A DNA stretch of 20,173 nt. Source: a virus. Where the stretch lies: positions 1 through 20,173 of IMG/VR virus record IMGVR_UViG_3300028156_000008, one strand, 5' to 3'. The notes under the pieces are model-generated. The model was given only the letters and a program-made list of their open reading frames with translations. It had not been told where the DNA came from and did no database searches. This document shows, piece after piece, positions 3,734 to 20,173 of the stretch; the stretch's first letter is position 1, and each line of letters opens with the position of its first letter. The translations under genes and the position numbers were made by a program.

Positions 3734-3905
3734 TCCGAAAGTAATCATAGTATGTACAACTTGTGGTAGTAGTGCTGTTACTAGAGAAGGAATACTAGTA
3801 TGGAATGTACCAAAGCAAGAATGGGAAATAGAATGTATGTTTATGGAATACTTTTGCCATAATTGTCAAAAAAATACAGGAATTAAAGAAAAATTTGTTA
3901 ATTAA
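3726..3905 (+). CDS. Small zinc-ribbon protein (59 aa)
   Basis: The 59-residue product carries two CxxC knuckles, CTTC (residues 10-13) and CHNC (44-47), separated by a beta-looking segment. This is the layout of a zinc ribbon binding one zinc ion; such domains bind nucleic acids or proteins, and no further function can be read. The ATG at 3726 overlaps the end of the preceding gene by 8 bases. The final codons (KEKFVN and TAA) lie within the left copy of the 21-bp direct repeat that brackets rtcB, so the right copy at 5101-5121 looks like a duplicate of the 3' end of this gene. Confidence 0.7.
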   Translation: MGNPKVIIVCTTCGSSAVTREGILVWNVPKQEWEIECMFMEYFCHNCQKNTGIKEKFVN

Positions 3906-3907
3906 TA
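3887..3907 (+). repeat. 21-bp direct repeat, left copy (flanks rtcB)
   Basis: These 21 bases, starting AGAAAAATTTGTTAATTAAT and ending in A, recur identically at 5101-5121. This copy encodes the last residues (EKFVN) and the stop of the zinc-ribbon gene and ends 17 bases before the rtcB start. The identity is direct; its origin by insertion of rtcB is inference. Confidence 0.85.
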
Positions 3908-3924
3908 AATTTAAAAAGAGAAAC

Positions 3925-5094
3925 ATGAAACAAGTAATAACAACAGAAAGAGTACCTATCAAGTTATGGCTTGATGATATTGAATCTGGAGCACTAGCAC
4001 AAGCAAAAAATACAGCTAATTTACCATTTACATTTAAACATGTAGCTATAATGCCAGATAGCCATCAAGGTTATGGTATGCCTATTGGTGGTGTATTAGC
4101 AACTAAAGGAGTTGTTATTCCTAATGCTGTTGGTGTTGATATTGGTTGTGGAATGTGTGCTGTTAGGACTTCTTTAATAAATATAAATAGAGAAGAGCTT
4201 AATTTAGTAAGAGAAGATATTAAAAAGCTTATTCCAGTAGGATTTGCGCACCGTTCAACTATACAGAATCAGGATTTAATGCCGGATTGGGAATATATAG
4301 ATGATAAAAGATGGATTGTATCTCAACAGTATGAAAAAGCATTATTCCAACTAGGTACACTTGGTGGAGGCAATCACTTTATTGAAATACAAAAAGATAG
4401 TAATGGCTATATATGGATTATGATACATTCTGGTAGTAGAAACATTGGATATAAAGTAGCTGCACATTACAACAAATTAGCTGAAGAACTAAATAGTTTT
4501 TGGTATTCGGAAGTGCAAAAGGATAAAGAATTAGCTTTTCTACCTACCAATTCTGATGCAGCTAAACACTATTTTAGAGAAATGCAGTTTTGTATTGATT
4601 TTGCTTTAGCTAATCGCACAGTTATAGTGAATGATATAAAGCAAATACTTACAAGTGCTTTTGACTACATTATATTCGATGATCCTATAAATATAGCACA
4701 TAACTATGCTAGATGGGAACATCATTTCAATAATAATGTAGTAGTACACAGAAAGGGTGCAACTTCTGCAAAGGAAGATGAATTAGGTATTATACCTGGT
4801 TCACAAGGAACCAAATCATATATTGTTAAAGGTTTAGGTAATACAGAATCATTTACATCATGCTCTCATGGAGCTGGTAGAGCTATGGGTAGAAATGAGG
4901 CTATTAAAAAGCTTGATTTAGCACATGAATTGCATATTCTAGATAGTCAGGATATACTTCATAGTATAACTACTACTAAAGATTTAGATGAAGCTTCTAG
5001 TGCTTATAAAGATATTGATGTAGTTATGGAAAATCAAAAAGATCTTGTAAAGATAGTAACAGAACTTACACCATTAGCTGTAATAAAAGGATAA
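3925..5094 (+). CDS. rtcB: RNA-splicing ligase RtcB
   Basis: RtcB joins RNA ends carrying 2',3'-cyclic or 3'-phosphate to 5'-OH ends using GTP and Mn, so it repairs cleaved tRNA or rRNA. Seen here: metal-ligand motif VDIGCGM (D72, C75), GGGNH (N150, H151), IHSGSR (H168), a further His in NIAHN (H259), HRKGA (H275), PGSQGTKS, and SHGAGRAM, whose H315 is the residue guanylylated in the family. All catalytic residues seem present; at 389 residues it is at the short end of the family. I chose ATG 3925 (MKQVITTERV); a TTG at 3895 lies in the repeat and is unlikely. It stands apart between two copies of a 21-bp repeat and 0.7 kb from a tmRNA, suggesting repair of RNA cut by host defences. Confidence 0.95.
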   Translation: MKQVITTERVPIKLWLDDIESGALAQAKNTANLPFTFKHVAIMPDSHQGYGMPIGGVLATKGVVIPNAVGVDIGCGMCAVRTSLININREELNLVREDIKKLIPVGFAHRSTIQNQDLMPDWEYIDDKRWIVSQQYEKALFQLGTLGGGNHFIEIQKDSNGYIWIMIHSGSRNIGYKVAAHYNKLAEELNSFWYSEVQKDKELAFLPTNSDAAKHYFREMQFCIDFALANRTVIVNDIKQILTSAFDYIIFDDPINIAHNYARWEHHFNNNVVVHRKGATSAKEDELGIIPGSQGTKSYIVKGLGNTESFTSCSHGAGRAMGRNEAIKKLDLAHELHILDSQDILHSITTTKDLDEASSAYKDIDVVMENQKDLVKIVTELTPLAVIKG

Positions 5095-6393: not shown

Positions 6394-8250
6394 ATGGAAT
6401 GTCAGGTGACGAGGATGAAAGAGCAACTAGAAGAAGTTAATAATTTTATTAGAATCAACGAATTTGTTGGTTTTGATACAGAAACTTCTTCTATGTTGCC
6501 TTTTGATGGTAAGTTATTAGCTGTACAAATAGGTGATTTTAATACACAATATGTTATAGATGTACAAACAATTGGGATAGATAATCTATTACCTACACTA
6601 AATTTACTTAAAGATACTATAGTCATAGGCCATAATCTAAAGTTTGATCTTAAATGGATGCATTATCATGGAATAAAAGTAGATAAAGTATTTGATACAT
6701 TTTTAGCTGAATGTTTATTAACTGCAGGCTTAGATAAAGAAAATAGACACTTATCATTACAAGCTTGTGTTAGTAACTATTTTGGAGTAAGACTTGATAA
6801 AAGTATAAGAAGTAAGATTATCTATGAAGGATTTTCTGATAGAGTTATTAGATATTGTGCTGAAGATGTAAAGTATTTATCTCTATTAAGAAAAAGACAA
6901 TTAGAAAAAATAGAAGAGTGGGAACTAGAAAAAGTAATGGACTTAGAGAATAGATTTGTTAAAGTTCTTATGCTAATGGAATATTACGGTCCCATTATTG
7001 ATACTAAGAAATGGACTGAAGTATATACTTTAGTTGAAAAGACATTAGGAAAAACAGTTGAACAGCTTAATAATATTATATTACATAATGATAAGTTAAA
7101 GAAATATATTAATACTGAACCTCAACTAGGTTTAGAATTTCCAGATTTTAATAATAAAGTAGCTGATAAAGTACTTATTAACTGGTCTTCTCCTATTCAG
7201 AAGTTAAAACTACTACATGGATTAGATATCAATGTTAAATCTACAGAAGCTAAAGATCTTATAAGAAAGAGAGATAAACATCCTATAGTACCATTACTTA
7301 TTAAATATAGTAAATGGAACAAGCTATCTACATCATTTGGTAGAAATTTTCTTAAGTTTATTCATCCAGTTACAGGTAGAATACACCCTGATTACTTTCA
7401 AATAATAGCCTCTGGACGTTTAAGTTGCTCTAAGCCCAACCTTTTAAACATACCGTCACATGGAGACCTTGCTAAGAAGATACAGGCTTCCTTTATACCC
7501 AAGTATGGAAATAAGATAGTTGGCGGAGATTATAGTAATTTTGAACTACGTATTATTTCAGAATTTGCAGATGAACCATTATGGACTACAACATTTGCTG
7601 AAGATAGGGATTTACATTCAGAATTATGCACTAGAATATTTAATATAAGAGAAGATCAAGTTAATGATCCGTTCCCACTAAAACCAGATTTTACATACCG
7701 CCATGTACAAAAAATTATAGACTTCGGTTTATCATATGGTATGACTGAATTTAAGTTAGGCGATCTCCTTGATATTCCTACCAGAGAAGCGAGGAAGTTA
7801 ATAAACAGCTTCTTTATCACCATACCAAGGGTTAAAAAGATACTATCTATCTGGGCATATGCAGCTACTTCAAGAGGATATATCAGGACTGCCCCACCTT
7901 ATAGAAGAATTAGATGGTTTCCCAATTGGAATGAAGATCTATCTAAAGTAGAACCGTATCTAATATCTGCTATTGAAAGAGAAGCTAAAAACACAGTACC
8001 TCAAGGTAGTAATGCAGATTGTATTAAAGAGGCATTATGCTTAGTACAAGATGAAATTGACAATAATAACTATCCAGTTAAGATCATGCTAAGTATTTAT
8101 GATGAAATTGTAACTGATTGTAAAAAAGAGTTTACAGAAGAGTGGAAAGTAATACTAGAAACATTGATGATCAAAGCTGCAAAAGAAATTCTTAAAATAA
8201 CACCAGTTAAAGTTAATGTCACTATAAGTGATCATTGGATAAAAGATTGA
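6394..8250 (+). CDS. Family A DNA polymerase with 3'-5' exonuclease
   Basis: This is the replicative polymerase. N-terminal DEDD exonuclease: FDTET (D28, E30), HNLKFD (N81, D85) and YCAED (Y154, D158). Polymerase domain: the ASGRLSCSKPNLLNIP segment (339-354), motif A GGDYSNFELR (D379), motif B RHVQKIIDFGLSYG (R436, K440, F444, Y448) and motif C SIYDEIV (D570, E571). At 618 residues it lacks the 5'-3' nuclease of bacterial Pol I, as in phage enzymes of the T7 type. Two small departures: Asp in place of Asn before Phe in motif B, and Tyr in place of His in motif C (IYDE for VHDE). The catalytic acids are intact, so it should be active. It opens the replication block. Confidence 0.95.
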   Translation: MECQVTRMKEQLEEVNNFIRINEFVGFDTETSSMLPFDGKLLAVQIGDFNTQYVIDVQTIGIDNLLPTLNLLKDTIVIGHNLKFDLKWMHYHGIKVDKVFDTFLAECLLTAGLDKENRHLSLQACVSNYFGVRLDKSIRSKIIYEGFSDRVIRYCAEDVKYLSLLRKRQLEKIEEWELEKVMDLENRFVKVLMLMEYYGPIIDTKKWTEVYTLVEKTLGKTVEQLNNIILHNDKLKKYINTEPQLGLEFPDFNNKVADKVLINWSSPIQKLKLLHGLDINVKSTEAKDLIRKRDKHPIVPLLIKYSKWNKLSTSFGRNFLKFIHPVTGRIHPDYFQIIASGRLSCSKPNLLNIPSHGDLAKKIQASFIPKYGNKIVGGDYSNFELRIISEFADEPLWTTTFAEDRDLHSELCTRIFNIREDQVNDPFPLKPDFTYRHVQKIIDFGLSYGMTEFKLGDLLDIPTREARKLINSFFITIPRVKKILSIWAYAATSRGYIRTAPPYRRIRWFPNWNEDLSKVEPYLISAIEREAKNTVPQGSNADCIKEALCLVQDEIDNNNYPVKIMLSIYDEIVTDCKKEFTEEWKVILETLMIKAAKEILKITPVKVNVTISDHWIKD

Positions 8251-8271: not shown

Positions 8272-8781
8272 ATGAATAAATCACAATTTAAACTAAGAAA
8301 AGTAGAAGAAGTGTATGTAATAACACTTGAAGACGAATTAACGACTATTTATCATCCTAGTGTTGAAGTAATAGTAAGAAATGATAATACTATTACTATG
8401 ACTTCTCCCGAAAATGGAACAGTATTACCTATCAATGCTAGTTTCTTAAATACTCCACAAGTTATCTCTGATATAAAAGCAGATTTAGCAATTATAACTG
8501 AAGCTCTTGATTTTGTAGCTAGTTTAAGTAGTGGAAATACTTCTGCTTATCATGGGCCGTCTATAAAAGGATCAGAACTATTACGACAGGATATTGCTAA
8601 AGCTAAATTTCTAGCAGAACAACCAGAAAATGTTAGAGAAGCTGTTGAAAAAGGAGATTTAATATTAGTCTGTAGAGATAATGGTAAAGTTTTTCTACGT
8701 GCTGGAGTTGGAGTAAGAAGAGCACTAAAATCTAAAACTGATGAATCAACCAAAGAAGAAAAGGGTACTGGAAAAGGGTAA
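8272..8781 (+). CDS. Hypothetical protein in the replication block (169 aa)
   Basis: Not recognised. The N-terminal half looks beta-rich (residues 1-65, for example VYVITLEDELTTIYHP and VEVIVRNDNTITM). A helix with HGPSIKGSELLRQDIAKAKF (about 94-113) follows, then a short beta hairpin (GDLILVCRDNGKVFLRAGVG, about 128-147) and a Lys/Glu-rich tail. It begins 22 bases after the polymerase stop, and its end overlaps the nuclease gene by 41 bases. The position suggests a replication accessory protein, but nothing in the sequence proves it. Confidence 0.7.
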   Translation: MNKSQFKLRKVEEVYVITLEDELTTIYHPSVEVIVRNDNTITMTSPENGTVLPINASFLNTPQVISDIKADLAIITEALDFVASLSSGNTSAYHGPSIKGSELLRQDIAKAKFLAEQPENVREAVEKGDLILVCRDNGKVFLRAGVGVRRALKSKTDESTKEEKGTGKG

Positions 8782-9370
8782 AACTGAAGAGTATATTAAA
8801 TGGTACTTTGAAGAACTACAGGAGAAGGGTTATGTACATAGTATAAATACAAATCCTTCTTCTATAGTTATCTTTGAGAAAATTGCAGTAACTCAATGGG
8901 TAACTTTACGACAAAGAGTTTATACTGCTGATTTTGAAATAATATGGACTATTTTAGGAATGGTTAAATGGTGTAATTTACAATATTCAACAGATGCTAT
9001 AAGAAAACCATTTATATCATATAACGATAGTACTTTAATAGAAGTTAAACCTAATGTATCATATAGATTAGCTAGAGCTAATACTTCAATGGTTACATTT
9101 CCTTTAAGAAGGAATATGTTGTATCAGGCAACCGGTCAATATGTACAAATGGTTAAAACAGAAGATTTATTTGCATCAACATTTACACCTAAGAGATATT
9201 TATTAACAGATAAAACAGGAAAACCAAGAATAATTCATTTTCATACAAGAACATTAGATGAATATTTACAATTAACTGATAACTTAACTAAACCTATGCC
9301 GGGTAGCAAATGGGATAGAGATGAGATATCAGACGATGATCTGGGATTTAAGTTTGTAGAAGATGGATGA
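8741..9370 (+). CDS. PD-(D/E)XK-type nuclease, DUF1064-like
   Basis: A helix-rich N-terminus (residues 13-30) precedes a nuclease-like core: VYTADFEI with D64, a long insertion, then TLIEVKP with E101 and K103. The order Asp, then Glu-x-Lys on the next strand is the PD-(D/E)XK signature, and the Tyr-x-Ala-Asp-Phe context is typical of DUF1064-type and related phage endonucleases, which are thought to act in recombination or junction resolution. A conserved-looking helix YRLARANTSMVTFPLRRNML follows. It overlaps both neighbours by a few codons, so it is translated with them. I infer the family from the motif; a different PD-(D/E)XK branch is possible. Confidence 0.65.
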   Translation: MNQPKKKRVLEKGKTEEYIKWYFEELQEKGYVHSINTNPSSIVIFEKIAVTQWVTLRQRVYTADFEIIWTILGMVKWCNLQYSTDAIRKPFISYNDSTLIEVKPNVSYRLARANTSMVTFPLRRNMLYQATGQYVQMVKTEDLFASTFTPKRYLLTDKTGKPRIIHFHTRTLDEYLQLTDNLTKPMPGSKWDRDEISDDDLGFKFVEDG

Positions 9371-9947
9371 TGAAACATTTCACATACTTGTTAATATTTG
9401 TATACTACTTAAAATAGATGCAAGAACTGTAATGTCTAGTAAAACTAGAGATGCTTCATTTATAAAAAATGTTCTACAATACATACTTTTTACATTATAT
9501 AATAAAAATAGATTATATTTATCTTTACAATTAAAATACGGAGGAATAAATATACGTAACTCGTTTATGCGAATTAATAACTACATTTACACTAAAGATA
9601 AGAAGTACTACCCTATGCTATTGACTATTAATAAACTCTACCCAATATTAGATATTGGAGTAGCTATTTATGAACTAAAGTCATTAACTTATGGATTTAC
9701 ACAAAGAAACAAGTGGAGCAAACGTCAAAAAAAGAGAGTTACTCCATTACGAGCAGCGAGAATATGTAATGAAATTATTAAACTTGAAAGACAATCAGAA
9801 AAACAAGTTAAAGAAGCTATTAACAGCGATTATTTCATTACTAGTTATCGTGAGTATAGGGATTATTACAACCTCCCCTATAAATATTACAAAGGCCAAA
9901 TTTCAAAACAAACTTATTCTATATTTACCAGACACATTACCAGATAA
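9363..9947 (+). CDS. DnaA domain-IV-like DNA-binding protein
   Basis: Residues 12-80 resemble the DNA-binding domain IV of DnaA: a helix, then TVMSSKTRDASFIKNVLQYI (22-41, matching the D-I-x-S-K-x-R-x-x-x-I-x-x-A-R-Q pattern), then the helix-turn-helix with YGGINIRNSFMRINNYI (59-75) in the place of DnaA's GGRDHSTV signature. There is no AAA+ domain, so this is only the DnaA-box-reading part, with an unknown, basic 110-residue C-terminus. It might mark the phage origin or compete for host DnaA boxes. The start overlaps the nuclease gene by 8 bases. Its last 179 bases are shared with the transglycosylase gene in another frame. Confidence 0.6.
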   Translation: MDDETFHILVNICILLKIDARTVMSSKTRDASFIKNVLQYILFTLYNKNRLYLSLQLKYGGINIRNSFMRINNYIYTKDKKYYPMLLTINKLYPILDIGVAIYELKSLTYGFTQRNKWSKRQKKRVTPLRAARICNEIIKLERQSEKQVKEAINSDYFITSYREYRDYYNLPYKYYKGQISKQTYSIFTRHITR

Positions 9948-15946: not shown

Positions 15947-16924
15947 ATGATACAAGGACACTCTCAAATAAGAAAGAGTGATATATTAGCAGTAACTAGT
16001 GAGGAAGAGTTATTCAAGAAGTACTGTAATAATTTTGAATATATCAACGTATCATTTAAGAGTGAACTGAGAGAGGACAAAACCCCCAGTTGCAGGATAG
16101 CTGATCTAGGTAGCGGTTTACGCTATAAAGACTTTGGATCAGCTATACCTGCAACTGATGTTTGGGGCTATGTGATGTTAAAGTTTGGACTAAATTTCCC
16201 AGAAGCACTAGAAAAAATAGCTACTGACTTATATATCACTAGTACTACTGGTATTATAATAGAACCAGTACTACAAAAATCCTATCCTAGACCACCTAGA
16301 AAACATCTTCTTATTAAAAGAAGAGATTGGCTATTATCAGACAAAGAGTTTTGGTATAATAGATATAACATTACAAAAGAATTATTGAATAGTTATTGTG
16401 TTAAACCTATAGATTACTACTGGTTTAATGGTACTGTGTTTAGAGTTCTAAAACATGCCTATTCTTATGATTATTATTGGAATGAAGGAGTCTTCTTAAG
16501 AAAAATATATCAGCCTTATTCACATAAAAATAAATGGATATCTAATGTAGATACCACCATAGTACAAGGCATTGATAATATACCTAAATTAGCTCCGTTA
16601 TTAGTTATATCTTCATCTTTAAAAGACGTGATGTGCTTAAAACTATTAGACTATAATGCTGTCGCTCCTAATAATGAAAGAAGTTGGCTACCAGCTATGG
16701 TTTGGAAAAAGTTTAAAAAGAGGTATAAAAAAATAGTTATACTATTTGATAATGATGAAACAGGTCTAGAATCAGCCTCTAATTTTTCTAAACAATATAG
16801 TATAGATTACAAATATATTCCACTCTCATTTACTAGACAAAATAAGAATATAAGTGATTTTATTTATAATCACTCGTTAAAAGAAGCTAAACTATTAATG
16901 AATAGTTTATTTAATCAGTTATGA
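15947..16924 (+). CDS. DnaG-like primase with Toprim domain
   Basis: A primase that would make RNA primers for the phage fork. Residues 37-90 match the CHC2-type N-terminal domain of DnaG (FKSELREDKTPSCRIA, then YKDFG, DVWGYVMLKFGLNFPEALEK), but the zinc-binding Cys/His set is missing; only C27 and C49 are seen. The Toprim domain starts at LLVISSSLKDVMCL (218-231) and contains LFDNDETG (266-273; D268, D270). The position of the usual catalytic Glu (xxEGxxD) is Ser here (S222-S224), unlike classic DnaG. It may be a divergent active primase with another acid, or need a partner. It begins 6 bases after the SSB gene. Length is 325 residues, with no helicase domain. Confidence 0.8.
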   Translation: MIQGHSQIRKSDILAVTSEEELFKKYCNNFEYINVSFKSELREDKTPSCRIADLGSGLRYKDFGSAIPATDVWGYVMLKFGLNFPEALEKIATDLYITSTTGIIIEPVLQKSYPRPPRKHLLIKRRDWLLSDKEFWYNRYNITKELLNSYCVKPIDYYWFNGTVFRVLKHAYSYDYYWNEGVFLRKIYQPYSHKNKWISNVDTTIVQGIDNIPKLAPLLVISSSLKDVMCLKLLDYNAVAPNNERSWLPAMVWKKFKKRYKKIVILFDNDETGLESASNFSKQYSIDYKYIPLSFTRQNKNISDFIYNHSLKEAKLLMNSLFNQL

Positions 16925-17099: not shown

Positions 17100-17543
17100 A
17101 TGAACGAAAGAAAAATCACTGTTGCCTCAACAAAGGCAAACAAACCTGTGACATTTAAAAGTGCTGCAGCAACATGGGGCGATCTTAAGAATGAGTTAAG
17201 CTCCAACAATGTCGAGTTTAATGATAAGATGAACGCTGTATTGAAAAATACCAGAACTAATCTTGTTCTTGATGACGCTGTATTACCTGAAGAGGATATA
17301 ATTATCTTCTTAATGGCAAAGAAGATGAAGTCAGGTACTGCTAAAAAATCTACAGCTAAAAAGGCTCCGGCAAAGAAGTCCACTGCAAAAAAGCCAGCTA
17401 AGAAAGCTCCAGCCAAATCTGCAACTAAGGTTAAAGCTAAACCTGCTCCTAAAAAGAAGACTGTAGTTAAGAAAGTTTCAAAGGCTGATGAAGCTTTAAT
17501 GAAAGAAGCTACTGAGATGGAGTCTAAGCTTAAAAGAATGTGA
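17100..17543 (+). CDS. Ubiquitin-like protein with H1-like tail
   Basis: Residues 1-79 look like the PRTRC_C type of prokaryotic ubiquitin-like beta-grasp domain: strand RKITVAS (4-10), strand PVTFKSAAATW (16-26), helix GDLKNELSS (27-35), and later strands TNLVLDD (53-59) and EDIIIFLMAKKMKSG (65-79). The order and the KxxKSG-type end match Ubl proteins of PRTRC and phage ubiquitin cassettes. From 80 to about 127 comes a Lys/Ala/Pro repeat (GTAKKSTAKKAPAKKSTAKK) like histone H1 or bacterial HU-tail proteins, followed by a short helix (ADEALMKEATEMESKLKRM). The Ubl is thus fused at its C-terminal end, with no diglycine at the protein terminus. It could bind DNA through the tail. Start 17100 follows TTTCAAAAC. 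Confidence 0.75.
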   Translation: MNERKITVASTKANKPVTFKSAAATWGDLKNELSSNNVEFNDKMNAVLKNTRTNLVLDDAVLPEEDIIIFLMAKKMKSGTAKKSTAKKAPAKKSTAKKPAKKAPAKSATKVKAKPAPKKKTVVKKVSKADEALMKEATEMESKLKRM

Positions 17544-17795: not shown

Positions 17796-19253
17796 ATGAG
17801 CCAAGAAATAGAACGAGAAGCAGAATTTGATCAGAGTGAATATGAAATGCTTGAGAATATGCTGTTAGCAAATAAGATACATGATGAAGTTATAACAGAA
17901 GTTAAAACTGAGATTAAAGAAATAGTATCTGCTAAACCTATTATTAATCATTATAAAAGGTTTAAATTTGATGAAGCAGCAGTAACTCCTGATACCAATA
18001 GAATTTTAATTGATTTTTGTACGCATTTAGATAAGTTAGGTGAATTAAATTATTTACCAAATGAAAAACATATTATAAACTACATACAATTTTTACAAAG
18101 TGCTTTAAGTTTAGATTCTATCTATTATAGTACAATGATGAAAACTTTAGCAATGTTTATGATTGTTTTTGACACTTATTATAAAGATAGATGGGATTTA
18201 ATAACTCTAGATTCGTATAATAGAATAGGTATAGCAGCTTATTATCCCGAATTTGTAATAGAAGATAGTGACGGTGAAACACATACTATAAAAGATTTAT
18301 ACGGCATATATAAGTTTTCTGGATCTACTTATACTGAATTAGAGATATTATATACTAGAATTACTATAACAGAAGAAGAAGCATCATCTAATTACTTCTT
18401 TTCTCATGGCAATTTTCCTAGTAACAGAATGATGAATGGAGGATATTATGGTAAAGTATGTGCTGGTTCTGGAGAAATAAAGACTATGATGGGACAAGTT
18501 CCTTCTCTAACAAGTCAAGATAGTCTTACTATAGAATTTGTTACACTTCTGGCTTTACAGTTAGAAGAGTTTTTTAAGTATGAGTACATCCCCGGCAGCC
18601 CTATGAAGAATATTCAAGCAATTGGATTTGGTGGACATTTTTCAGTACCTAATTTATTAGAAAACCATTTTCTAAAAGAATTTGTAGATAAAATTAGTTT
18701 AATACCCGGAATAGCAGTTAAAAATTCTTATTTTGGGCTTATATCATATTTACCTAATATAAATAAAGAGTTATTTGCTAGGTTAATAGAATTTACGTAT
18801 GTACCTAAATGTTTTTTAGATACTAATGATAATAGTTATTTTAATTCAAGTAATCCTATAATAGCAAATAATTCTGATGCTTTTAGATTTAAAGGTAATT
18901 TAATGATTATTTTTAGAGAAGAACAGAAGTATTTAAAAATAATAAAAGAGGAATCTAAACAAGTTGTAATACTTACTCAAACAATTCATCCTGCAACTTT
19001 ACGTTTAATACATGATCTAATTAACAAATTGTTATTTATACATTCAATACGAAATTCTTATGACAAAAAACCAGTCAAAAAACGAAAAGCGAAATTGGGC
19101 ACTGAACAGACCAGTAATCTCTTCAGAAGAAGGAGAGCAGTTACTCTTAACTCACAAAGCATTGTCAGGGAGAACCCCACAAGCGGGACAATATCCATTT
19201 CAGGACAAGACTACGTATTCCAAACCCAAACTGTCTCCGCCAGTACGACATAA
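17796..19253 (+). CDS. Candidate E2-like (PRTRC_B/Prok-E2-type) protein
   Basis: A 485-residue protein that I place tentatively with the Prok-E2-type proteins (PRTRC protein B), which act like ubiquitin-conjugating enzymes. The region 190-300 holds the pattern: a strand (TRITITEEEA), FFSHGNFPSN (H204), a Gly-rich turn, then YYGKVCAGSGEI with C222 as candidate active-site Cys (compare G-x-VC-x-G in PRTRC_B), and a later helix-rich stretch (IEFVTLLALQLEEFF). Before it is a helical, acidic N-terminus (1-60) with a possible coiled coil; after it is an unmatched 170-residue part and a basic Ser/Thr-rich tail (KKRKAKLGTEQ, FRRRRAV). The last 194 bases are shared with the JAMM gene in another frame. 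Function is inferred from partner genes. Confidence 0.5.
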   Translation: MSQEIEREAEFDQSEYEMLENMLLANKIHDEVITEVKTEIKEIVSAKPIINHYKRFKFDEAAVTPDTNRILIDFCTHLDKLGELNYLPNEKHIINYIQFLQSALSLDSIYYSTMMKTLAMFMIVFDTYYKDRWDLITLDSYNRIGIAAYYPEFVIEDSDGETHTIKDLYGIYKFSGSTYTELEILYTRITITEEEASSNYFFSHGNFPSNRMMNGGYYGKVCAGSGEIKTMMGQVPSLTSQDSLTIEFVTLLALQLEEFFKYEYIPGSPMKNIQAIGFGGHFSVPNLLENHFLKEFVDKISLIPGIAVKNSYFGLISYLPNINKELFARLIEFTYVPKCFLDTNDNSYFNSSNPIIANNSDAFRFKGNLMIIFREEQKYLKIIKEESKQVVILTQTIHPATLRLIHDLINKLLFIHSIRNSYDKKPVKKRKAKLGTEQTSNLFRRRRAVTLNSQSIVRENPTSGTISISGQDYVFQTQTVSASTT

Positions 19254-20173
19254 TGTAGTTGAAATGGATGGAGCTAGATTAACTATTTGTAATGAAGCTC
19301 AAAAACAAATAGACTATCTATTAAATAAGTTTCCTTCTACTGAATGGTCTGGTATTATGGTTTGGGATGTAATAGAAGGTAGTCTTCAAGACCCAGCTAC
19401 TTTATTAGTAGAGGTTAAGTATATACTATTAATGGATATTGGTTCTGCAGCTTATACTGAATATGAAACTGAAGCTGAACTTACATTAGATCTCTATGAT
19501 GAATATCCAGATGCAATGTTAATGAGGATAGGACATTGCCATAGTCACCATAGCATGCAAGCTTACTTTAGTAGTACAGATACTCAAGAGTTGCATGATA
19601 ATGTAGATAAACATGTAGCATACCTATCTCTTATTGTCAGTTCAAAATCAAAATATGTTGCTAAAATGGCAGCTTTATCTATTGACGAAACTAGACATAT
19701 AGTTAAAGATTTCGATGATAGTGAAGCTGTAGCAATTTCAGAATCTAAAAGCATGATTATTTATAATGTAGATATTATAGGTCAGGAACAAAAGAGATTT
19801 GAAGATACAGTAATTGATGCTAGAATAGATAAAGTTACAAAATTTTCAAGTACTAAAAGTAAAAGTAAGAATAAAAGTTATTCACCACATAATACTGATT
19901 ACTATGACAGAGTTTATAATTTTGGTTCTCACAATGCGGAACAACAGATGGAAATGTTTAAAGATACTGAACCTGTAGATAAGGAATTTGTTAATGGTAT
20001 AGAATGTATATTGTATCTAACTATTCCCCCACTCGAAATACATAGACTATTAAAAAGATTGCTTGGTATTAATGCGGAGGCTAATTTATCTGTTGAGGTA
20101 AAGGCTATGGATTTAATTCAAGGGTCAGCTTTAATGGATGAACTAGCAGATACATTTGAAGAAGAAATACTAC
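19060..20173 (+). CDS. JAMM (JAB) metalloprotease, partial at window end
   Basis: The frame runs open from ATG 19060 past the right edge. It has a full JAMM motif, the zinc site of deubiquitinase-like isopeptidases: E95 in TEWSGIM, and H161-S-H163 then seven residues to S171 and two to D174 (HCHSHHSMQAYFSSTD). It is the sort of protease that matures or removes a ubiquitin-like tag, and fits PRTRC protein A. Residues 1-70 are basic, Ser/Pro/Gln-rich and probably disordered; they share 194 bases with the E2-like gene. After the JAMM domain (about 70-230) comes a Ser/Lys-rich linker and another region of unknown fold. The stop lies outside. An in-frame ATG near 19266 (MDGARL) would avoid the overlap. 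Confidence 0.85.
   Translation, partial: MTKNQSKNEKRNWALNRPVISSEEGEQLLLTHKALSGRTPQAGQYPFQDKTTYSKPKLSPPVRHNVVEMDGARLTICNEAQKQIDYLLNKFPSTEWSGIMVWDVIEGSLQDPATLLVEVKYILLMDIGSAAYTEYETEAELTLDLYDEYPDAMLMRIGHCHSHHSMQAYFSSTDTQELHDNVDKHVAYLSLIVSSKSKYVAKMAALSIDETRHIVKDFDDSEAVAISESKSMIIYNVDIIGQEQKRFEDTVIDARIDKVTKFSSTKSKSKNKSYSPHNTDYYDRVYNFGSHNAEQQMEMFKDTEPVDKEFVNGIECILYLTIPPLEIHRLLKRLLGINAEANLSVEVKAMDLIQGSALMDELADTFEEEIL

Follow-up and report, generated by a model that had tools for sequence, protein, structure and literature searches.

Recent discussion of ubiquitin-type conjugation in prokaryotes has centered mainly on host defence, and CBASS, in which Cap2 (an E1-E2 fusion) acts with Cap3, follows an E1/E2/JAB logic. 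The archaeon Caldiarchaeum subterraneum encodes a compact Ubl-E2-E1-JAMM set together with a RING-type E3, and its ubiquitin-like protein (Ubl) ends in GG followed by a nine-residue extension that the JAMM protease is reported to remove (PMC5654768). This Rpn11/JAMM enzyme cleaves both pro-ubiquitin and a Ub-GFP fusion, and the full-length pro-Ub is described as refractory to its E1 until it is cut (PMC5654768). DRJAMM is similarly reported to cut a MoaD-MoaE fusion to the C-terminal Gly (PMC8832034). In bacteria, the operon type 6d of Iyer et al. (2006), with examples that include a Bacteroides, is described as combining a JAB protein, an E1, an E2-like protein whose His lies downstream of the Cys, a helical protein and a small Ubl with a conserved C-terminal Gly (PMC1779556). 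The same paper predicted JAB release of a phage Ubl from lambda tail assembly protein I (TAPI), a Ubl with a C-terminal domain that is paired with the JAB protein TAPK (PMC1779556).

Here we analyzed a viral contig of 20,173 bases from IMG/VR (the window, i.e., the whole stretch of DNA under study), in which an open reading frame on the plus strand at 17100-17543 encodes a Ubl protein of 147 aa. The genes 3' of it encode a protein with one transmembrane (TM) segment, a 485-aa protein and a JAMM protease whose gene runs past the window end. Contig L005, 99.98% identical to the window, extends the block with the complete JAMM gene, a ThiF-type E1, a conserved gene and, further on, a uracil-DNA glycosylase. 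The features of the window are as follows.

15947..16924, + strand: DNA primase, followed downstream by the Ubl block in relatives
17100..17336, + strand: ubiquitin-like beta-grasp domain, residues 1-79, ending in KKMKSG (predicted model and fold matches)
17337..17480, + strand: basic tail rich in Lys/Ala/Pro, residues 80-127, with a histone H1-like composition (composition, codon and repeat checks)
17481..17543, + strand: short charged C-terminal segment, residues 128-147, and stop codon; similar end in L014
17546..17722, + strand: small one-TM protein, last ~14 residues like the Ubl tail end (LMEEAKSL / LMKEATEM); tentative link
17796..19253, + strand: putative E2-like (UBC-fold) protein, invariant S203, H204 and C222 (CxG) (alignment and weak model)
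19060..20173, + strand: JAMM metalloprotease (E..HSH-x7-S-x2-D), overlapping the E2-like gene and truncated where the window ends; the full gene is at 8001-9317 of L005

The order Ubl - E2-like - JAMM - E1 (ThiF), with the Ubl gene first and a DNA primase alongside, is conserved among relatives. Of 36 loci scanned, some of them near-duplicates, 31 have all four genes in this order, Bacteroides phage crAss001 and Flavobacterium phage Fpv1 included; in the remaining five the contig is short and stops before the block does. Wherever the contig was long enough, JAMM, E2-like and E1 genes adjoined the Ubl gene, and in most of the 36 loci scanned the primase lay upstream, the Ubl gene sitting within a replication/recombination block. 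The relatives reached were the Flavobacterium phages Fpv1 and FpV4, bajarodcaudo virus 1, members of the Steigviridae (crAss001, cr111_1, cr126_1, cr106_1, cr128_1, cr85_1, and DAC15) and IMG/VR contigs. Because the cultured relatives infect Bacteroidota, such a host is likely for the window as well. All four families are listed as "unknown function" in PHROGs, and the GenBank record of crAss001 names the E1 thiamine biosynthesis ThiF, calls the JAMM protein "metalloprotease domain containing," and lists both the Ubl and the E2-like protein as "hypothetical." A ubiquitin-type conjugation set appears to be conserved in phage replication blocks, and because it occurs in cultured phages of Bacteroides and Flavobacterium, crAss001 among them, it is testable in the laboratory.

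Each described system shares part of this arrangement. The phage block resembles the Caldiarchaeum operon in its compact gene set and extended Ubl, but the Ubl would end in SG, the tails range from 1 to 213 aa, and an E3 was not recognised. It contains the same four protein types as operon type 6d, from which it differs in that the E2-like His lies upstream of the Cys and the Ubl is extended. Whereas the lambda Ubl and JAB genes belong to a tail-assembly cluster without E1 or E2, the genes studied here lie among replication genes. In eukaryotic S27a and L40 fusions, too, ubiquitin is followed by a basic or ribosomal extension and cut at Gly; there the enzymes are cysteine DUBs rather than a JAMM protease, whereas tails here are interchangeable between phages, and we imply no evolutionary link. 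The E2 domain of CBASS Cap2 was among the fold matches of the E2-like model, although the phage encodes these enzymes in separate genes and supplies a Ubl itself. Apparently new are the location among phage replication genes, a Ubl extended by swappable tails, and the distance in sequence, the PRTRC_C and Prok-E2_D models giving no match. Titles and abstracts of the open literature on crAss-like phages, phage PRTRC and prokaryotic Ubl conjugation did not describe the pathway.

The earlier note, made from the DNA letters alone, had read the gene as a ubiquitin-like domain that ends in MKSG at residue 79, and both parts of that reading held: translation of the open reading frame gave a domain ending in ...LMAKKMKSG with Gly79 as its last residue, and the structure prediction that the note had called for was consistent with ubiquitin. 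Modeled with AlphaFold2 using 21 family members, residues 1-79 formed a strand-strand-helix-strand-strand arrangement (pLDDT 86). Foldseek returned SUMO1 and the Caldiarchaeum ubiquitin:Rpn11 complex as best matches (E ~1e-3), and VIA-align superimposed the model on ubiquitin (1ubq) over 71 residues with Z 8.1 at 2.8 A. By its predicted model, residues 1-79 are therefore a ubiquitin fold of the beta-beta-alpha-beta-beta type. Profile searches with 21 Ubl domains against Pfam and NCBIfam models detected no family. The PRTRC_C Ubl model TIGR03738 was absent from the families listed for these 21 domains and matched none of three records at E<=10. The Ubl profile gave only chance-like matches to PDB sequences (the best was a coiled-coil protein, E 0.0014), and a pattern scan of genome contigs yielded 16 pattern matches, none of them a relative.

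We next examined the junction between domain and tail in an unanchored alignment of 44 distinct full-length Ubls. Ser78 and Gly79 were each present in 43 of the 44, which places them among the best-conserved positions anywhere in the protein; the exception is L055, which has SKG (SKGA) in place of KSG. Conservation drops sharply at residue 80, which is mixed (Ala in 21 of 44). Every one of the 44 continues beyond the Gly, by 1 to 213 residues, the tails of L029 and L060 being minimum lengths because these two proteins are cut by the contig end. In each of 11 pairs compared, the Ubl domain was more conserved than the tail. A conserved Gly with a variable continuation is, as judged from the alignment, the pattern of a processed precursor. 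The earlier note had assumed that Ubl proteins usually end right after the last strand, a generalization that fails in this family: seven of the 44 end within two residues of the Gly (KSGF, KSGR, KSGK, KSGK, KSGI, KSGLN, and KSGKF). Classic ubiquitin and Ubl precursors likewise bear a few residues past the Gly. Some of these nearly tailless members still keep KSG and the enzyme genes.

The Lys/Ala/Pro stretch that the earlier note placed directly after residue 79 was confirmed by composition: residues 80-127 (48 aa) contain 19 Lys, 11 Ala, and 5 Pro, and the short charged, helix-like end was found as the last 20 residues. The net charge of the whole 68-aa tail is +19. Among 41 genes (31 from the window and 10 from L005), the best 48-residue window of Lys, Ala, and Pro reached 77% in the Ubl protein and 31% in the next best. 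DNA slippage or an artefactual array was considered and rejected, as we found no tandem repeat and no recurring 12-mers, and both Lys codons are in use; two near-identical contigs that bear the same Ubl, and may represent the same virus, also count against a slippage artefact. The histone likeness is one of composition only, the NCBIfam Hc2 model scoring 19.8 bits against a cut-off of 135. As a strongly basic small protein, the window tail probably binds nucleic acid; binding to DNA specifically is a plausible, lineage-specific guess from charge only.

Across the family, a survey of homologues that the earlier note had proposed for junction and tail upheld the junction and found tails to be common, but of differing kinds. 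Tails of 30 Ubls were charted for charge and the other 14 were read by eye. The window (+19) and L014 (+14) stood apart from the rest of the charted tails (-22 to +4), and they alone among the 44 bear a Lys/Ala/Pro tail. These two are sisters with SH-aLRT 100 in a tree of primase, E2-like, JAMM, and E1 proteins, in which L014 is represented by its primase alone. Since the Lys/Ala/Pro tail is confined to this pair, "histone-like" is a lineage label and not a family-wide description. Many Steigviridae tails finish in a [DS]-E-I-x-x-M-F-like end and others in an E-A-[RK]-x-M-like end; given such short conserved ends in some lineages, tails might also act while attached. The Ubl tail of cr126_1 (L011 6182-6823) holds a ribosomal L7/L12 C-terminal domain (PF00542; Pfam E 5e-12 for the whole protein and 3e-12 for the tail alone), the only domain above cut-off when ten tails were searched against Pfam.

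A natural separation of the two parts was found in crAssphage cr106_1, in which the Ubl reading frame stops after KSGKF and is succeeded by an HNH gene and then by a 130-aa reading frame for the tail alone; the latter is related to the tail of crAss001, its score being matched in 0 of 1000 shuffles. The tail is thus a separable module with its own gene in this phage. Rfam did not detect an intron across the cr106_1 Ubl-HNH-tail stretch; one may have been missed, because Rfam was also blank at the split E1 gene of L025. Small reading frames of roughly 40-50 codons lie between the Ubl and E2-like genes of L015, L018, L021, L022, and L024, whose Ubls have one or two extra residues, and these are perhaps the detached counterpart of the tail.

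The active-site motifs of the JAMM, E1 and putative E2-like proteins are retained. Unsplit JAMM proteins have the ligands E, HxH, S, and D (E..H[ST]H-x7-S-x2-D). A regular expression found the HSH form in 18 of 28 distinct JAMM open reading frames, the other ten being four split-gene fragments and six HTH variants (five seen directly in the alignment, L020 through its near-duplicate L021). The Prok-JAB match to JAMM (E 3e-5) fell just under its cut-off. The E1 (L005 9301-10092) matched Pfam ThiF with E 3e-17 and keeps the GxGGI nucleotide loop and a C[ST]xK[QA]T motif, which we take to resemble the catalytic-Cys motif of E1s; 18 of 28 have the KQT form and the rest are KAT forms or fragments. 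In contrast to the cr106_1 stretch, Rfam identified group I introns within the JAMM genes of L007 (Fpv1, intron at 8373-8618) and L037 (a Steigviridae-like contig, intron at 9258-9517). Interruptions also occur in the E1 genes of L016 and L025; at the latter, Rfam found no intron.

The 485-aa protein is best described as putatively E2-like. S203, H204, C222, G224, E263, G267, and P269 were invariant in an alignment of 16 sequences. Of 28 proteins, 27 have CxG (the exception is truncated with its contig) and 25 have HSH, in place of which the window protein has SHG. The predicted model was poor overall (pLDDT 53), with residues 109-261 forming a helix, four strands, the Cys, and helices; for region 92-264, the nine best VIA matches were all UEV/E2 domains, at a Z of only 4.3-6.1. 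Foldseek returned zero significant matches for the model against PDB, and Pfam yielded none above cut-off for the protein. The Prok-E2_D model (PF14460), which we presume to be linked to PRTRC, the cassette that we take operon type 6d to represent, matched none of three records at E<=10.

These findings suggest that crAss-like phages encode a small private ubiquitin pathway. The Ubl would be translated as a precursor (pro-Ubl) with its tail beyond Gly79, and JAMM, the product of a gene slightly farther downstream, would cut after Gly79, exposing the end -MKSG. The ThiF-type E1, encoded just beyond the window, would then adenylate the Ubl, and the E2-like protein would pass it to target proteins, from which JAMM may also remove it again. 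The same cut would release the tail as a separable passenger, other phages carrying other tail modules. We regard this reading, in which a JAMM cut after Gly79 yields both a modifier for E1/E2 and a free tail protein, as the probable one. The earlier note had likewise proposed that JAMM frees the Ubl end after KSG. The conserved Ser78 and Gly79, the variable residue 80, the neighboring enzyme genes with their retained catalytic residues, and the separate tail gene of cr106_1 support that proposal indirectly, the cleavage itself being a deduction from them. The cuts made by the archaeal Rpn11 and by DRJAMM serve as precedents. Counting against it are a mature end of SG instead of GG, the weak matches of the E2-like protein, SHG in the window protein as opposed to HSH in most, and SKG in L055. 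A pro-Ubl design in which tails are swapped, and in which one phage has its genes divided just where the cut is presumed, predicts cleavage after KSG. A wider version, in which crAss-like and related Bacteroidota phages run a private ubiquitin-type pathway with interchangeable nucleic-acid-binding tails, histone-like in the window and with an L7/L12 domain in cr126_1, and both products act on phage replication, is tentative and on balance doubtful; with a modifier fused to a nucleic-acid-binding tail, each JAMM cut would give one modifier for every DNA- or RNA-binding protein.

Three other explanations were weighed against the same evidence. The strongly basic tail (net +19) and the position of the gene in a replication/recombination block would suit a protein that is never cut, its Ubl serving as a docking domain and its tail anchoring a replication-complex scaffold on phage DNA. 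Yet basic tails of this kind occur in two of 44 relatives, tailless Ubls keep KSG, E1, E2-like, and JAMM genes are always there where contigs allow, and cr106_1 encodes Ubl and tail separately, which makes such a scaffold improbable. The related proposal of the earlier note, a DNA-binding Ubl that never conjugates, is unlikely on similar grounds, most other tails being neutral or acidic and the near-tailless members retaining KSG.

If instead the tail were the main product and the Ubl a cleavable N-terminal partner aiding its folding or dosage, as ubiquitin does for S27a and L40 in eukaryotes, one could understand why tails differ among lineages while the Ubl stays, and why the cr126_1 tail holds an L7/L12 domain. 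The E1 and E2-like genes would then be superfluous, and seven of 44 Ubls are essentially tailless and must therefore have a role of their own, so we give this explanation very little weight. An equally slight chance attaches to a sulfur carrier of the ThiS/MoaD type, in which the Ubl would serve not for protein conjugation but to carry a C-terminal thiocarboxylate made by the E1. The E1 is indeed a short ThiF-type enzyme, and JAMM processing of MoaD fusions has been reported (PMC8832034). An E2-like protein with an invariant Cys adjoins, however, and a sulfur-transfer gene was not recognised in the block, in which several genes are unannotated. The C[ST]xK[QA]T motif of the E1, presumably its catalytic-Cys motif, also points away from a sulfur carrier.

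Several smaller observations concern the surroundings of the Ubl gene. The C-terminus of the one-TM protein, TEEELRLMEEAKSLEDRL, resembles the end of the Ubl tail, ADEALMKEATEMESKLKRM, and that of L014; the pair ranked first of 820 C-terminal pairs, a modest result, as 33 of 2000 shuffles scored as well. A general docking motif at tail ends was rejected, since other proteins did not score clearly above background among 171 CDS (Fpv1 and most of crAss001, two Ubls included). A programmed frameshift from the Ubl into the next reading frame, considered from the overlapping frames only, was likewise set aside. The gene after E1 (L005 10089-11093; gp75 in crAss001) is conserved in crAss001-like and Fpv-like phages, has no Pfam match, and is possibly a fifth pathway member. 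Its FpV4 relative (L006 9991-11079) ends in VEDLPF, which to us recalls the C-terminal tips of SSB. Near the block, L005 14356-15492 encodes an adenylosuccinate synthetase-like protein that matches PurA (4e-34) better than PurZ (1e-13). Elsewhere in the window, 6394-8250 encodes a PolA-type polymerase (DpoZ model 1.5e-29, well under cut-off), and 3895-5094 encodes an RtcB-family RNA ligase.
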